The notes under the pieces are model-generated. The model searched no databases and was not told the DNA's origin. It saw only the letters and a program-made list of their open reading frames with translations. This document shows, piece by piece, positions 11,924-19,806 of a stretch of 64,000 nucleotides of DNA (the first letter of the stretch is position 1; every line of letters begins with the position of its first letter). The position numbers were made by a program, and so were the translations under genes. Source of the stretch: Bryobacteraceae bacterium (GTDB lineage Bacteria; Acidobacteriota; Terriglobia; Bryobacterales; Bryobacteraceae); NCBI GenBank assembly GCA_025928545.1, contig JAICJH010000014.1, forward strand, positions 51,992 through 115,991, written 5' to 3'.

Positions 11924-13747
11924 CTAATCACCCATTTTCGCCACCCGTTCATGCGCCAGTTTCCGGGCCTCGCTCAAGTTGATGTGTGCGCCGGTGCCGT
12001 GTTTCTCCAGGAGATGAAGCAGGTTCGCACCGTTCAGCAGGCTGATCGGCTTTCCCTTTGCGAACTCGTGGGCGTCGGGTCCATAGTCCGAGGTGGTCAC
12101 CAGAATGCCTTTCGTTGCGCCTTCATTCATCAAGGTTCCATAGAGATCGCGGACCGCGGACACTCCAACCGTATATGCATACCGCTTGGCCTGGATCACG
12201 ATCTTGCCACCTGTTATCGGATCGGGATCGAATGCGATGGCGTCGACGCCCCCATCGCGGCTGGCTTGAGTGACCTTGACTTCACCACCACGTGACGAAA
12301 ACTCTTTGGCAAAGATTTCGCGGATCAGGTGCTCGAACTCTTCCCAGTCCATGGTTGCAAGATTGGAGCCCACGTTCAGATTTTCGGCAACAGCATGAGA
12401 CGGAACAAAGCGTTTATCGTCACGGCTGAGTTCCACGATAGGCGCGACCGGCGTCACGCTATGCAACTTCGGACTGCCCACGCCGCGGAGCTGTCGAAAG
12501 CAAGCCTTCGGATCAACCATGGCTAAGTTGATTGTCAGAAATGGATCGCGGGAAGCTTGCACGGAAAGGATGCAGGCTGTCGCCTGGTTGCCCGTGCTCT
12601 TGTCCGTTGACGTGACAATTCCGTTCAGGACAATGGCCGAAATTGCTCTTGTCGCATCGCTCTCGAAGAGCTCGTGCAAGGTTCGCAGAACAATCTGATA
12701 GACGAGATCGTCGTAAAGTTTGGCTGTCTGGGTTTCGGAAAGAATTATCTCCTTGAATGTGTCCGTCGTCTGGACGTATTTGATTTCCGAAAGGGTCGGC
12801 AAATCCTCTGGAGCGGGTAGCTGGCAATTCAGCAGCAGCATTCCGGTTTCGGCGTTCCACTCGAAATCGAATTTACGGGATATGCACGACGGGTAATCCG
12901 AGCGGGAGAGAACCTGCTCGCAGTAATCGATTACAGACTCAGGCGATTTAGCCAAATAGCGATCGCGGGCCTGGTCGATTTCCCTGCTCTGCTGCGCCAA
13001 CTCCTCTTCGTAGCGGCCCTTGTCGCTGGTCCACTGCGACAACTCCAAGGCATGTTGGCCGTCTTGTTTTGAGCAGAGTGCGCGGTAGCTTTCGAAGGTG
13101 GCCTGATTGTGCGCGGTAACGTCTCTACAGGCACGTTCCCAGACGCTGAAATCGGTCTGCAATTGGCTGGCAAGTTCTGCAAGTTTGGCAGTCTTTCGGG
13201 AGGCCAGCAGCTTATCGAGGATGGAAAGCTGTGGGTGGTATTTGTAGTCCGACGGCAGCGGCTGGACTGGGAATTGTTGGTATAGCGGAGGGGTGGGAGG
13301 AACAGGCCTGACTGGGGCCAATGTCGGAAAAGGGGCTTTGTTTTTGAGTGCTTCCCAATCGAGTGAGGGGTCTATCTCGATTCCGCGAACCAGCGTATTT
13401 CTGAGCGAATCGAGTAGTTGCTGTGCCTCAGCCGTGCGTTCCTGAGCCAGTTCCTTCTGGTTTTCGAGGTGGAGCCTGCGGGATTCTTTTGCGTCGTGTG
13501 TGCGCCTGATGCGGTCGTGTGCCGCGGTCTGTTTCTGCCCTGCGGTGTTCCACTGAAGGGCGATTGCCTGCGCCTTATTTGCGAGCACGTTTCTATCGGC
13601 GGCCTGGAGCAAGGCGTACTTGTGCAGTCCGTCATGAAAGGCTTCCAGATAATATCTGGGAACGCCCCGAGGACTGCGCACAACCGATGCGTTACCAAAA
13701 CGCGTTTCCATTAATAAATTCGTCGCCGGAATTTGAGAGTCTACCAT
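11924..13747 (-). CDS. Mrr-type restriction endonuclease with long N-terminal coiled-coil region
   Basis: Start moved to internal MVDSQIP; C-terminal MDWEEFEHLIREIFAKEF...VTQASRDGGVDAIAFDPDPITGGKIVIQAKRY (D-GGVDA...QAK nuclease motifs). Confidence 0.85.
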   Translation of the reverse strand: MVDSQIPATNLLMETRFGNASVVRSPRGVPRYYLEAFHDGLHKYALLQAADRNVLANKAQAIALQWNTAGQKQTAAHDRIRRTHDAKESRRLHLENQKELAQERTAEAQQLLDSLRNTLVRGIEIDPSLDWEALKNKAPFPTLAPVRPVPPTPPLYQQFPVQPLPSDYKYHPQLSILDKLLASRKTAKLAELASQLQTDFSVWERACRDVTAHNQATFESYRALCSKQDGQHALELSQWTSDKGRYEEELAQQSREIDQARDRYLAKSPESVIDYCEQVLSRSDYPSCISRKFDFEWNAETGMLLLNCQLPAPEDLPTLSEIKYVQTTDTFKEIILSETQTAKLYDDLVYQIVLRTLHELFESDATRAISAIVLNGIVTSTDKSTGNQATACILSVQASRDPFLTINLAMVDPKACFRQLRGVGSPKLHSVTPVAPIVELSRDDKRFVPSHAVAENLNVGSNLATMDWEEFEHLIREIFAKEFSSRGGEVKVTQASRDGGVDAIAFDPDPITGGKIVIQAKRYAYTVGVSAVRDLYGTLMNEGATKGILVTTSDYGPDAHEFAKGKPISLLNGANLLHLLEKHGTGAHINLSEARKLAHERVAKMGD

Positions 13748-13820
13748 TCGGCTGCGACTCCAGCGGCGGATTTGTTGCGCTCCCTGCCCCACCGATTAGA
13801 ATTAACAAGATGGCGTTCGC

Positions 13821-14801
13821 ATGATCCTCGTGACTGGAGGGACTGGCTTTATCGGGAGCCACCTGGTGGAAAGACTAGTTGCGCGCGGCGAGTCTGTTCG
13901 CGTGCTGGTTCGTCGACCGGGGCTGTTCGAAAAAACTCCTGTCGAAGTTTTTCGCGGCGATCTTCTCAGCGGCGACGGACTGGCGCGCGCTGTCACCGGG
14001 GTCGATACCATTATTCACCTGGCCGGCGTCACCAAGGCGCTCTCGGCCTCCGACTACTATTCCGGCAATGTCACGGCAACAGAGAACCTGGCCCGCGCGG
14101 TCGCAACTGCAAATGCCGGCGCGGCGCGGCCGATCCGCATGGTTCACGTGAGTTCTCTGGCGGCCGTTGGTCCGGCGCCGGACAGCACTCCTCTCACGGA
14201 AGATGCGGGGCCGCATCCGGTCGGCCATTACGGAAAGTCGAAGCTGGAGGGCGAACGGCGCGTGCGGGCAATTCTGCCGGAGGCCGTGATCGTGCGTCCC
14301 CCGGTGGTCTACGGACCACGCGATACGGATGTTTTCCAGATGCTGAAATCGATCAGTCAGGGTCTGGTGGTCCAGATCGCGGGCGGAGAGAGATGGTTCA
14401 GCGCCATCTACGTTACCGATCTGGCGGACGGCATCATGGCGGCTGCTAAAGAACCGAAGGCTGCCGGCCGCACCTTCTTCCTCGCGCATCCGGAAGCGGT
14501 GTCCTGGACCGAACTCGGCAAGATCGCAGCGGGAATCATGGGAAGAAGCGCGCGGGTGGTCAACATTCCTCAGCCTGCCGCGTATCTGGCCGGGTATTGC
14601 GGCGAGTTGTGGTCGCGGCTGACACGAAAGCCGGGAATTGTCTCGCGAGAGAAGATCCGCGAAGCCATCTGCCCCTGGTGGCTGTGCGACCCGCGGCGCG
14701 CGCAGCAAGAACTCGGCTTTACGGCGGCGACGGGAATTCATCAGGGTCTCGCAACTGCACTGGACTGGTATCGAGAGGCAGGCTGGTTGAAATGGGCATG
14801 A
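13821..14801 (+). CDS. NAD-dependent epimerase/dehydratase family protein (CerR-like candidate)
   Basis: MILVTGGTGFIGSHLVERL Rossmann motif, VHVSSLAAVG, HYGKSKLEGE (YxxxK). Confidence 0.9.
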   Translation: MILVTGGTGFIGSHLVERLVARGESVRVLVRRPGLFEKTPVEVFRGDLLSGDGLARAVTGVDTIIHLAGVTKALSASDYYSGNVTATENLARAVATANAGAARPIRMVHVSSLAAVGPAPDSTPLTEDAGPHPVGHYGKSKLEGERRVRAILPEAVIVRPPVVYGPRDTDVFQMLKSISQGLVVQIAGGERWFSAIYVTDLADGIMAAAKEPKAAGRTFFLAHPEAVSWTELGKIAAGIMGRSARVVNIPQPAAYLAGYCGELWSRLTRKPGIVSREKIREAICPWWLCDPRRAQQELGFTAATGIHQGLATALDWYREAGWLKWA

Positions 14802-15691
14802 GCCATTCCAAATACAAATTCTGGCCGGTGGACAAGGTGATTCTGGCGTATTTCGCGTTCACCGCCGCGATTGAGCTGATCTGGTTCCGCGAGATACCCT
14901 GGGCAGGGTCATGGCTCGGGCTGCATGTGCTGGGTGTGGCGCTGATCCTGCTGGCTGCGCGCAACGTGGAAACAAGAGGGCTTCTGGCCGAGGCCATCCG
15001 GATATTCCGTCACTGGTATCCACTGCTCTTCGTGGCGTGCTGCTACCGGGAGATGGCTACCCTGATTCCCGCAATTCGCCATGCGCGCTTCGACCGCGCT
15101 TTGGCCAGTCTCGATTACGGATTCTGGGGTGCGTATCCGACCGTTTGGCTGGAGAGAATATACACGCCTTTCTTAACGGAATTCCTACAAATAATTTATA
15201 CCTTATTTATACCCGTGGTTTTAATGGTTCCGGCGGTGAACTGGCTGAGCCGGCGTTATGCCGATTTCCGCTATATGGCGTTTCTGCTGGCGCTGGGCTT
15301 TCTCGCATCGTATCTTGGCTACCTGATGGTGCCGGCACGCGGGCCCCGCTTCCTGCTGGACCATTTCCAACACCTGTCTTTACAGGGGCTGTGGGGATTC
15401 GGCGCGATGCAGACGACTCTCAACCAGCTGGAGCACGACCATTACGACTGTTTTCCCAGCGGCCACACGGAGCTTACAGTACTAGCCTGCTGGCTCAGCC
15501 GATCCATTTCCCACAGGCTGTTTTGGGTCTACTTTTTATACACTCTTTGCATTGTTTTTGCTACAGTTTATCTACGGTATCATTACACCGCCGACCTCCT
15601 CGCCGGTGTTGTGGTTGCGCTTGTTTTGATTCTCACAGCGCCGTATCTGTACCGCGCATTAACTGAAAAAGGGGAAGCGATTGGCAATTGA
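14798..15691 (+). CDS. PAP2-superfamily membrane protein, Aur1/inositolphosphotransferase-like
   Basis: Multiple TM helices; CFPSGHTELTVL and VYLRYHYTADLLAGV catalytic motifs; ATGA overlap with previous gene (alternative ATG at 14792). Confidence 0.85.
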   Translation: MSHSKYKFWPVDKVILAYFAFTAAIELIWFREIPWAGSWLGLHVLGVALILLAARNVETRGLLAEAIRIFRHWYPLLFVACCYREMATLIPAIRHARFDRALASLDYGFWGAYPTVWLERIYTPFLTEFLQIIYTLFIPVVLMVPAVNWLSRRYADFRYMAFLLALGFLASYLGYLMVPARGPRFLLDHFQHLSLQGLWGFGAMQTTLNQLEHDHYDCFPSGHTELTVLACWLSRSISHRLFWVYFLYTLCIVFATVYLRYHYTADLLAGVVVALVLILTAPYLYRALTEKGEAIGN

Positions 15692-16820
15692 AGTCTCGGC
15701 GATCAGTGGCAAGAGCGGATTAAAAGAGTTCGTGAAGTTGCCCTGGTCGATTTACGGGAGCGACCCGCACTGGGTGCCTCCGCTGCAGATTGCCGTCAAG
15801 GAACTGCTGGACAAGGCCAAGCATCCGTTTTATGCCAATGCCGATGCCGAGTTCTTTATCGCCCGGCGTGATGGCAAGGCGGTGGGTAGGATCGCGGCAA
15901 TCGTCGACCGGAATCACGACAAGTTCCATGAGGAGAAGGCCGGATTTTTCGGATTTTTCGAATCGATTGACGATGCCGAAGTTGCCCGGGCACTGCTTGG
16001 CAAGGCCAGGGAGTGGGTGGAAGCCCGCGGCGCCGAATTCCTGCGGGGGCCCGTGAATCCTTCAACAAACTACGAGTGTGGTCTTCTCGTAGAGGGTTAC
16101 GATTCCAGTCCGATGGTGATGATGACGTACAATCCGCGCTATTATCCGCGGTTGCTGGAGCAGGCGGGGCTGCGGAAGGTCAAGGATCTCTATTCGTTCG
16201 TCAACACGGCGGATGGCGTGGACGTTCAGAAAATCGGCCGGGTTTCGGACAGGGCGATGAAGCGGGCGGGTGTCACGATCCGGCCGGTGAACATGAAAGA
16301 CTTTCAGGGCGAGGTTTCGCGCATCTGGGATGTGTACAACGCCGCCTGGAGCCGGAACTGGGGTTTCGTGCCCATGACGAAGGAGGAATTCTACCTGATG
16401 GGCAAGGAAATGAAGCAAATTCTGAACCCGGAGATGGTTTTGATCGGCGAAACCGCGTCCGAAGATGGCAAATCACGTATGATAGGGTTTGCTCTGGCTC
16501 TGCCGGACGTAAACGTGGCGCTGAAGCCGGCCAACGGGCGACTGCTGCCAACGGGGCTGTTGAAGATACTGTACTATCAACGGAAGATCCGCGCGGTGCG
16601 CGTGATTGCGCTGGGAGTAGTGGAGGAATTCAGGACAACGGGAGTGGCGGCCGGCTTTTACGCGGCATTGGTTCGGAATGCCCGCAGGCTCGGCTATCAC
16701 CAGGAATGCGAGATGTCGTGGATACTGGAAGATAACGTATTGATGACACGATCCCTGGAATTGATGGGAGCGAAGCGGTCGAAGACTTACCGTCTATATC
16801 AAATGGAACTAAGAGCATGA
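15681..16820 (+). CDS. GNAT-like acyltransferase family protein (bacterial ceramide synthase candidate)
   Basis: 379 aa; TTG start with upstream AAAGGGGAAG; LPWSIYGSDPHWVPPL...HPFYANADAEFFIARRDGKAVGRIAAIVDRNHDKFH...GPVNPSTNYECGLLVEGYDSSPMVMMTYNPRYY. Confidence 0.8.
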   Translation: MAIEVSAISGKSGLKEFVKLPWSIYGSDPHWVPPLQIAVKELLDKAKHPFYANADAEFFIARRDGKAVGRIAAIVDRNHDKFHEEKAGFFGFFESIDDAEVARALLGKAREWVEARGAEFLRGPVNPSTNYECGLLVEGYDSSPMVMMTYNPRYYPRLLEQAGLRKVKDLYSFVNTADGVDVQKIGRVSDRAMKRAGVTIRPVNMKDFQGEVSRIWDVYNAAWSRNWGFVPMTKEEFYLMGKEMKQILNPEMVLIGETASEDGKSRMIGFALALPDVNVALKPANGRLLPTGLLKILYYQRKIRAVRVIALGVVEEFRTTGVAAGFYAALVRNARRLGYHQECEMSWILEDNVLMTRSLELMGAKRSKTYRLYQMELRA

Positions 16821-18055
16821 GCGCATCGATAGCACGTATTGCCGAGATTCAACGGAAAACCGGCACCAACGACGTCTTCGAGAAATGCCGCACCTTTACC
16901 CGACCGGCCCAGTTGCAGGCGGCGGGATTGTACATGTATTTCGAGACATTCGGCGACCGCGAAGGCTGCGGGCCCGGCGAAGTCCGCCGAGGCGACCGAA
17001 AGATCCTGATGTTCGGGTCGAACGATTATCTGGATCTGATCCGGCACCCGGAAGTGATGGAAGCGGCGGCGAACGCAGCCATGAAGTACGGAAGCGGCTG
17101 CAGCGGTTCACGCCTGCTGAACGGCACGCTGGATATCCACGTGAAGCTGGAAGCGGAACTGGCGAAGTTCGTTCGCAAAGATGCGGCGATCATCTTCGGC
17201 ACGGGTTTCCAGGCCAACTATGCCACCCTTTCAGCCCTGACGGATAAGGGCGATACGCTGATCTGCGATCACAACCTGCACGCCAGCCTGGTAGAGGGCG
17301 CGCTGCGATCCGACGCGCGGATGGTTCGTTTCCGGCATAACGATCTGGACCACTTCGAGCGGTGCCTTGAAAACTGCAAGTGGGACGAACGCGTGCTGGT
17401 GGTTTCCGAAGGCGTTTTCAGCATGGAAGGCGATGTGGCCGAACTGCGGGGCCTGATCCCGATGGCGAAGCAGGCCGGAGCGCGTACGTTCGTGGATGAA
17501 GCCCACGGTATCGGCGTGCTGGGCGAGACTGGCGCGGGAGCCGCAGAGCATCTGGGTGTTCTGGACGATGTGGATCTCATCATGGGCACGTTCAGCAAGT
17601 CGCTGGCGTCCGTGGGTGGGTTTATCGCGGGCGAGAAGACGGTCATCGATTTCCTGAAGCACACGGCCAGGGCATTTGTTTTCTCGGCGAGCCTGCCGGC
17701 GGCATCGGTTGCGGCTGCGGCGGTGGCATTGCGGATTATTCAGACCGAGCCGGAGCGGCGGCAGCATCTGTTGCGGATCGCGGGGCTGCTGCGGGAGGAA
17801 CTTCGATCGCGCGGCTTTACGCTGCTCGACGGGGAAACAGCGATTGTGCCGGTTGTGTTCAACAGCGATTCGGATTTGTGCCGTCTCAGCAAGACTTTGC
17901 TGGAGGAAGGCATTTATATCAATCCGATTCTTCGTCCGGCGGCTTCACAGAATCTGCTGCGGATTTCCTGCACGGCCGCACATACGGAAGCGCATGTGGA
18001 GCGGCTGGTGAGTACGATTGAGAAGGCTGTTCAGAGTCTGGGGATCGAACGGTAG
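16817..18055 (+). CDS. PLP-dependent alpha-oxoamine synthase, serine palmitoyltransferase-like
   Basis: LMFGSNDYLDLIRHPEV, GSGCSGSRLLNGTLDIHVKLE, FVDEAHGIGVLGETGAG, GTFSKSLASVGGFIAG (PLP-Lys); ATGA overlap with previous gene. Confidence 0.88.
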   Translation: MSASIARIAEIQRKTGTNDVFEKCRTFTRPAQLQAAGLYMYFETFGDREGCGPGEVRRGDRKILMFGSNDYLDLIRHPEVMEAAANAAMKYGSGCSGSRLLNGTLDIHVKLEAELAKFVRKDAAIIFGTGFQANYATLSALTDKGDTLICDHNLHASLVEGALRSDARMVRFRHNDLDHFERCLENCKWDERVLVVSEGVFSMEGDVAELRGLIPMAKQAGARTFVDEAHGIGVLGETGAGAAEHLGVLDDVDLIMGTFSKSLASVGGFIAGEKTVIDFLKHTARAFVFSASLPAASVAAAAVALRIIQTEPERRQHLLRIAGLLREELRSRGFTLLDGETAIVPVVFNSDSDLCRLSKTLLEEGIYINPILRPAASQNLLRISCTAAHTEAHVERLVSTIEKAVQSLGIER

Positions 18056-18159: not shown

Positions 18160-19572
18160 TTATTTGCCCGTTGCTCCGAGCACTGGCTTCTTCTCCACCG
18201 CTTTCGAGTGCCGCGTGATCCACTCCGAGATCAGGTTCAGCACCGACGGCGCGATGGTTTCTTCAATCTCGCCGTACTCGGACGGAGCGCCGGTGGTCGC
18301 GGTCTGAAAAAAGTGATTCAGGCCTGCGAGCTTCACCACCTCATAATCCTTGTTGGCGCCAGCTTCGAGTTCCCATGTAATCGCGGGCAAGTTCTGCGCC
18401 GGCGGCACCTGCACGTCCAGCGCGCCGTTTAACGCCAGCACGGGCTGCTTCAAGGCACGCAATGCGGGACCGGGATCGTAATTCGCGATAAACCGAAACC
18501 ACGGTGTGGAGGCTTCGTCGAACCGGGAGTTCAGCAGATTCAGCGGTCCCCCGCCCCCGAACTCGCCGACCGAGGCGCGCATCTTCGATTTCGCCAGGCT
18601 CGGATCGGCCTCGTTCCGCGCAATCGAAAGAATGGTCTGTTCCCTTTCGCGGTTGCGTTCAATCAACGCTTCCGATATGCCCATGGCACGGCTCACCAAA
18701 ATCTGCTGTTCGATGATGACCTGATCGCCCGGCACTCCAGGGGCGGCGAGGAGTACGAGAAAATCGACGTCCTTCGCGCCTAACGCGGGATCGCTTGCCA
18801 CCATAGGCGCGACCAGACCGCCTTCACTGTGACCTATGAGTCCAATCCTGCCGACAAACTCGCGGGAGCGCAGAAAACGAACCGCGCCGGCAATATCGTC
18901 GGCAAAATCCCGCGTGGTGGATCCGTTGAAGCTGCCGCTGGATTTTCCCGTGCCCCTGTCGTCGGCGCGCAGCACAACCACACCCCGGCGGGAAAGATAG
19001 TCGGCAATGACCCAGAAAGGCTTGTGGCCGAGATTGGTTTCATCGCGGTCCTGCGGGCCGGATCCGGTGATGAGCACGACGGCTGGAAACGGACCCGAGC
19101 CGGGAGGAATGGTCAGTGTCCCGTCGAGGAAGACGTTGCGCGCAAAACTGGAGAATTTCACATCCTGCTCGGCATAGGGAAAAGGCGGCTGCGGCATTTG
19201 CGGCCGTTTGACTTTCGGTGCAACGCCATCGCGAGTGAGCACGAACGGCAGCGCGGTGCCCTGATACCAATCGCCATCCAGACGATTGCCATCGTCCATC
19301 ACGATGCCGCTGAATTGCCCATCGACTGAGTCCACGCGAAAATTCACACGGTAGCCCTGCACGCGAACACCGGTAACAGGAATGCCGGTGACGTGCTGAT
19401 CCAGGCTGTCGAGTTTGCCGGTACCGTTCCTATCGAAATGAATCGCTACCCGCAGGTTCAGAATGCCCTGGTTGAGGGTGCCGGTCCAGAGACCCTGAAG
19501 TTTTGTGAGCGAGAAATCCTGGGCGAAAGCGGCGGCGGAAAACAGCAGCAGCAACGAGACAGACCGAAACAT
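18160..19572 (-). CDS. secreted alpha/beta hydrolase
   Basis: Start moved to MFRSVSLLLLFSAAAFAQ (signal peptide); VLITGSGPQDRDE, GLIGHSEGGLVAPMVA nucleophile elbow. Confidence 0.85.
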   Translation of the reverse strand: MFRSVSLLLLFSAAAFAQDFSLTKLQGLWTGTLNQGILNLRVAIHFDRNGTGKLDSLDQHVTGIPVTGVRVQGYRVNFRVDSVDGQFSGIVMDDGNRLDGDWYQGTALPFVLTRDGVAPKVKRPQMPQPPFPYAEQDVKFSSFARNVFLDGTLTIPPGSGPFPAVVLITGSGPQDRDETNLGHKPFWVIADYLSRRGVVVLRADDRGTGKSSGSFNGSTTRDFADDIAGAVRFLRSREFVGRIGLIGHSEGGLVAPMVASDPALGAKDVDFLVLLAAPGVPGDQVIIEQQILVSRAMGISEALIERNREREQTILSIARNEADPSLAKSKMRASVGEFGGGGPLNLLNSRFDEASTPWFRFIANYDPGPALRALKQPVLALNGALDVQVPPAQNLPAITWELEAGANKDYEVVKLAGLNHFFQTATTGAPSEYGEIEETIAPSVLNLISEWITRHSKAVEKKPVLGATGK

Positions 19573-19806
19573 TGAATTGATTGTACTGGGTTGAGGCGGG
19601 AGCTGTTGTTTGGCTATTCGACGGCGGCGGTAATATATCGCAGTTATCACTCCACTCCATTTGTAAGAGATCGGAGTGACAGAAATGAGAATGACAGACG
19701 GCACAGACGGCACGAAGACTTGCGTACTTCCACCCCGGTTGCGGTTGGCACGGGCGGCGCATGAACGGCCGAACAAGACGGGCCGCATAATGTTATCCTG
19801 CCGTGC

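Follow-up and report, generated by a model that had tools for sequence, protein, structure and literature searches.

The window analysed here, a 64,000-nucleotide stretch of the genome of an uncultured soil Bryobacteraceae bacterium (contig JAICJH010000014.1 of assembly GCA_025928545.1), contains at positions 13821-18055 a four-gene operon predicted to encode a compact sphingolipid pathway, in which a serine palmitoyltransferase (Spt), a bacterial ceramide synthase (bCerS) and a CerR-type reductase would form the ceramide backbone and an Aur1-like PAP2 membrane protein would add the headgroup. A probability of roughly 0.7 is assigned to this reading, the ceramide-backbone part of which is regarded as very probable. 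The evidence comprises gene content, homology, phylogeny, catalytic residues, predicted folds, operon order and co-occurrence, from which the reactions, substrates, inositol headgroup and co-expression were predicted. The source is a 6.7-Mb draft genome that is 95% complete, with closest named relatives in GTDB among metagenome-assembled genomes (MAGs) of Acidobacteriota; many of these are from soils, peat among them, and Bryobacterales, Bryobacteraceae and Candidatus Solibacter are represented. The genes are numbered 1 to 4 in the order of Table 1.

The protein encoded by gene 4 was compared with alpha-oxoamine synthases of the PDB. The best score was obtained with Spt of Sphingobacterium (338 bits), followed by Spt of Sphingomonas (254 bits), with BioF/KBL-type enzymes at approximately 240 bits or less and SulA at 226 bits. 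A maximum-likelihood tree grouped the protein with Spts of Sphingobacterium and Sphingomonas and with Spt-linked enzymes of many phyla, with BioF, KBL and HemA outside (97/97, then 92/91). The deduced sequence contains the active-site residues N69, H155, K261 and R382, and A291. The Asn, His, Lys and Arg are common to Spt and SulA, the single difference in the active site being Ala in Spt versus Lys (Lys281) in SulA (PMC9304779). Identity as a SulA of sulfonolipid synthesis is excluded by Ala291 at the position of SulA Lys281 and by the score, and identity as BioF, KBL or HemA by the scores, the tree and the residues. By phylogeny and active-site residues gene 4 is an Spt, and neither a BioF/KBL enzyme nor SulA.

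Within the Spt clade, the Bryobacterales proteins branch as a lineage of their own, with a long stem (1.03 changes per column) and an inner position that is a polytomy. The stretch between GIY and the conserved His comprises 25 residues in every Bryobacterales Spt with the whole motif readable (gene 4 and L132-L160 compared), versus 27 in the other alpha-oxoamine synthases read, and the two-residue deletion is located in the loop corresponding to PPATP of the Sphingomonas Spt. The best NCBIfam model for gene 4 was the Bacteroidota-type Spt equivalog NF047600; since the score of 434.9 bits did not reach the curated cut-off of 640, the protein was not assigned to that subfamily. Judged from the sequence, the amino acid or acyl donor of the Bryobacterales Spt could differ from those of the usual Spt.

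No gene for an acyl carrier protein (ACP) was found among the open reading frames of the operon, and the nine ACP-domain matches that the genome yielded are all on contigs other than that of the window. The hallmark of the rhodobacterial acyl-AcpR-dependent Spt, an acpR gene immediately before spt, is absent from the operon. Dedicated AcpR/AasR pairs accompany the proteobacterial subgroup of Spt, and the Bacteroidota-type Spts represent the other subgroup (PMC9386255). Since gene 4 scores best against the Bacteroidota type and not the proteobacterial ACP-dependent Spt, the operon is expected to lack an ACP gene. The initial annotation of this DNA had remarked that an Spt-associated ACP is not seen here, an observation that is borne out and accounted for by the type of Spt.

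The product of gene 3 gave only a weak GNAT match in Pfam; its AlphaFold model revealed a tandem-GNAT fold with a predicted local distance difference test (pLDDT) score of 93. The protein is 34% identical to YghO of E. coli BL21 over the full length (383 columns, E 1.6e-70) and 35% identical to the GNAT of the Sphingomonas parapaucimobilis Spt cluster (E 2e-66). YghO is listed as the equivalent of Caulobacter CC_1154, elsewhere named bCerS (PMC9386255); the link between gene 3 and Caulobacter bCerS runs through BL21 YghO and not through the Caulobacter sequence itself. GNATs of this family were found near Spt, usually together with an epimerase gene, both in Streptomyces, Rubrobacter, Sphingomonas, Pseudomonas, Aureispira and E. 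coli and in genomes of Zixibacteria, Eisenbacteria, Chloroflexota and Bacteroidota. In a tree of 97 sequences, those of Bryobacterales were located among Spt-linked relatives and away from distant unlinked paralogues, the sister group consisting of unlinked copies from Acidobacteriota. In each of nine Acidobacteriota genomes where bCerS is unlinked, sister copies among them, an Spt-type enzyme is encoded elsewhere with 44-51% identity, clear of BioF/KBL-type matches. Gene 3 is proposed, on homology and predicted fold, to encode a full-length tandem-GNAT homologue of the bCerS/YghO family functioning as the N-acyltransferase.

The comparison also bears on E. coli, where YghO of both BL21 (L124) and K-12 (L206) is a bCerS-family tandem GNAT. 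The K-12 protein is annotated as a putative transcriptional regulator, a reading of the GNAT that is excluded by the tandem-GNAT fold. Of 5426 complete E. coli genomes, 4527 contain yghO. The interval between yghO and yghQ is occupied by IS5 alone in K-12 and by an spt cluster in BL21, where yghO is grouped with genes for a fatty acyl-AMP ligase, epi, acp and spt; this makes BL21 ill-suited as a host for tests of sphingolipid genes. A sequence labelled as an E. coli plasmid (L037, NZ_MG591698) holds the glc-yghO-spt region that is chromosomal in BL21, and is possibly mislabelled or integrated chromosomal DNA.

Gene 1 matched the Pfam Epimerase family (1.3e-33) and belongs to the extended short-chain dehydrogenase/reductase epimerases. 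Its product resembles epimerases encoded in Spt clusters of Aureispira (32% identity, 4e-54), Streptomyces (38%, 1e-45), Rubrobacter (34%) and E. coli BL21 (epi, 26%, 1e-24). HpnA was the best NCBIfam model, yet its score of 136 bits fell short of the cut-off of 368, and identity as HpnA or a sugar epimerase was rejected. The sequence matches suggest a CerR-type reductase that would act with Spt and bCerS and is proposed to reduce the 3-keto group. CerR of Caulobacter is periplasmic (PMC11087976). In the predicted protein of gene 1 the Rossmann motif begins at residue 2, which leaves no space for an N-terminal signal and renders a cleaved signal unlikely; the reduction may here be cytoplasmic.

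Gene 2 matched Pfam PAP2_3 (1.6e-20). A profile of 13 PAP2 sequences aligned with yeast AUR1 over residues 69-285 and with phosphatases only at the C-terminal motifs. A Foldseek search with the AlphaFold model (pLDDT 90) retrieved Aur1 first (9vj4 and 9ivc, E 7.4e-6 and 9.7e-6, template-modelling score 0.61-0.65), the next PDB match having an E-value of 0.02; the protein is thus markedly closer to yeast Aur1 than to any solved lipid phosphatase. The PAP2 triad H223, H262 and D266 (H...HxxxD) is invariant. PAP2_3-like genes are also found near bCerS clusters of Nonomuraea, Eisenbacteria and several Acidobacteriota. The genome encodes a myo-inositol-phosphate synthase (MIPS) and a protein with phosphatidylinositol-phosphate synthases as its best structural relatives, which makes phosphatidylinositol plausible in the source organism. 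In Bacteroides, BT_1522 was found through homology to AUR1 and is required for phosphoinositol dihydroceramide (PMC9246714). Gene 2 probably encodes an Aur1-type ceramide headgroup transferase, although this is held with somewhat less confidence than the pathway as a whole; by sequence and modelled fold the protein is most likely an inositol-phosphoceramide synthase, inositol phosphoceramide being the best guess for the product.

In the proposed pathway, Spt would form 3-ketosphinganine by condensation of serine and a fatty-acyl thioester, the latter probably acyl-CoA or a housekeeping acyl-ACP. The long-chain base would be N-acylated by bCerS and the 3-keto group reduced by CerR, yielding dihydroceramide; the order of acylation and reduction is left undecided by the sequence. 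In the last step the Aur1-like protein would move a phosphoryl headgroup onto ceramide from a glycerophospholipid donor, the most likely donor being phosphatidylinositol and the most likely headgroup inositol-phosphate. The initial annotation had interpreted the operon as the three backbone steps of Caulobacter plus an unspecified headgroup enzyme, with the synthase as Spt, the GNAT as bCerS and the epimerase as CerR. The sequence-level comparisons of each gene support that interpretation, in the Spt clade placement and residues of gene 4, the full-length YghO homology of gene 3 and the matches of gene 1 to epimerases beside Spt, and the profile and fold of gene 2 now indicate an Aur1-like headgroup enzyme.

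Several results weigh against this pathway. The NCBIfam Spt score is below cut-off (435 versus 640), the Bryobacterales Spts form a long-stemmed lineage of their own and their loop is shortened. One relative (G033, L019) retains PAP2 and bCerS without a window-type Spt in its genome. PAP2_3 proteins also occur in relatives lacking the operon and the source genome encodes a second one (27% identity), so that resemblance to Aur1 is not enough to settle the substrate. Finally, MIPS is encoded by 53 of 61 relatives whether or not the operon is present, and the correlation is uninformative on an inositol headgroup.

In one alternative, the backbone would be synthesized as proposed, but the PAP2 protein would dephosphorylate a lipid such as ceramide-1-phosphate or phosphatidylglycerol-phosphate, and the headgroup would come from another enzyme or be absent. 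Membership of the PAP2 superfamily is consistent with such a role, as is the best single sequence match of the profile in the PDB, a PAP2 phosphatase of B. subtilis (5.3e-5) aligned through the C-terminal motifs; however, profile and fold gave full-length alignment with Aur1 only and no ceramide kinase was seen in the operon, which render a phosphatase unlikely. Somewhat less probable again is a sphingolipid-like product formed from another amino acid, either 1-deoxyceramide from alanine or another base. Alanine is usable by Spt (PMC11334938), and the separate lineage and the loss of two residues from the loop near the substrate arginine are in accord with an altered substrate. Against it, all four canonical Spt residues are present, Ala291 in place of the SulA Lys argues against cysteate, and the top-scoring solved relative is a serine enzyme; in addition, a 1-deoxy base would lack the 1-OH for Aur1-type transfer and leave the PAP2 gene pointless. 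That gene 4 encodes BioF of biotin synthesis or KBL of the threonine pathway, with unrelated neighbours, is highly improbable. Although no further alpha-oxoamine synthase (BioF or KBL) was detected in the genome at E 1e-3, leaving gene 4 as the sole member found, this assignment is contradicted by the tree, scores and residues, there are no bio or tdh neighbours, and in many phyla the gene is found linked with homologues of bCerS and CerR.

Table 1. Predicted genes of the Bryobacteraceae sphingolipid operon, with positions in the window.
Gene	Predicted product	Position	Strand	Evidence
1	CerR-type NAD(P)-dependent epimerase/reductase, 326 aa	13821..14801	+	Pfam, Spt-cluster matches
2	PAP2_3 membrane protein, Aur1-like, 297 aa from ATG 14798	14798..15691	+	Pfam, profile, fold
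3	Bacterial ceramide synthase (bCerS/YghO family), tandem GNAT, 379 aa, TTG start	15681..16820	+	YghO homology, fold
4	Spt-type alpha-oxoamine synthase, 412 aa, PATP-type loop shorter by 2 residues	16817..18055	+	PDB scores, tree, residues

The gene junctions were read directly in the sequence and consist of ATGA at 14798-14801 and at 16817-16820 and an 11-base overlap at 15681-15691, the same junctions of four plus-strand genes that had been described in the initial annotation. The overlapping gene ends suggest translational coupling, and the 11-base overlap of PAP2 and bCerS recurs in congener loci L012 and L014. The gene starts are predictions; the PAP2 gene has an alternative in-frame ATG at 14792. 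Comparison with three congeners gave ratios of nonsynonymous to synonymous substitution rates of 0.05-0.08 for bCerS and Spt, 0.12-0.16 for CerR and 0.18-0.22 for PAP2, indicating that the four genes are real and under purifying selection. Scans of the operon for promoters and terminators gave no signal beyond chance level. The operon is bounded by opposite-strand genes for an Mrr-type nuclease (11924-13792) and an alpha/beta hydrolase (18160-19788), so that the four genes form an isolated unit. The nuclease, a restriction endonuclease of the Mrr_cat type, has a long N-terminal part without assignment; its gene diverges from the operon across a 28-base gap and lies in a local dip in GC.

The order CerR-PAP2-bCerS-Spt is kept in most of approximately 30 Bryobacterales genomes, with two loci lacking CerR at that place. 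Among the 61 relatives, bCerS was found in 10, of which nine encode a window-type Spt (at least 541 bits, then a gap to 267) and nine PAP2 (at least 255 bits, then a gap to 84). The presence of bCerS in only 10 of 61 relatives indicates that the operon behaves as a patchy cassette, and it was found in just 4 of the 19 genomes of the genus. In the wider phylum the bCerS family is present in 112 of 396 genomes. The relative without window-type Spt (G033) possibly reflects decay or replacement. A DUF3047 gene, possibly encoding an accessory factor, is directly upstream of CerR in three relatives (L013:8109-8807, L014:5502-6521 and L018:11853-12512).

The cluster of Caulobacter crescentus and E. 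coli BL21 (spt, acpR, epi/cerR, aasR and aca/bcerS, the latter being yghO) encodes homologous Spt, bCerS and CerR for the same three backbone steps, with 26-39% identity between the operon proteins and the BL21 counterparts. The operon differs in gene order, in the lack of AcpR and AasR, in the additional PAP2_3 gene and in an Spt of the other subgroup. The Spt of Sphingobacterium and other Bacteroidota (PDB 3a2b and 8guh) is the highest-scoring solved relative, with the same catalytic residues and likewise no dedicated ACP, whereas the Bryobacterales Spt belongs to a separate long-stemmed lineage with the PATP-type loop two residues shorter. The three backbone genes are reported as not close together in sphingolipid-producing Bacteroidota (PMC11334938), in contrast to the single operon found here. 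The likeness to Aur1 of yeast and BT_1522 of Bacteroides includes the full-length fold match, FPSxH and HYxxD motifs and an inositol-phosphate supply route in the genome; however, identity to yeast Aur1 is only about 17%, and BT_1522 is in an inositol cluster whereas gene 2 is inside the ceramide operon. The actinobacterial clusters of Streptomyces NBC_01001 (L032), Rubrobacter (L033) and Nonomuraea (L042) also have adjacent Spt, bCerS and CerR genes, with a PAP2_3 gene alongside in Nonomuraea, but in the order Spt-bCerS-CerR and with 40-44% identity in bCerS and Spt.

Black Sea MAGs of 38 phyla are reported to contain Spt-like genes (PMC11334938). No report of sphingolipids in Bryobacterales was found in a literature search, most subscription papers being outside its reach. 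The backbone route is already known from Caulobacter and E. coli BL21; what is new is the recurrence of a four-gene operon that has an Aur1-type gene built in, together with a Bryobacterales lineage of Spt whose loop is shortened. A more specific proposal is advanced tentatively, that Bryobacterales carry a patchy, all-in-one inositol phosphoceramide operon in which the bacterial route to ceramide is joined to an Aur1-type synthase and to a distinct Spt, the shortened loop of which alters the preference for acyl donor or amino acid.

The inositol phosphoceramide headgroup is elsewhere linked to fungi, plants, protozoa and some Bacteroidota. Acidobacteriota rank with the most abundant bacteria of soils. 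Should the operon function as predicted, some of the ceramide and inositol-phosphoceramide signal of soils may be bacterial and not fungal, which would affect the reading of soil lipid markers. Provided that the predictions hold, one small operon would also allow two questions to be studied together, the donor used by a bacterial Aur1-type enzyme and the disputed order in which acylation and reduction take place.

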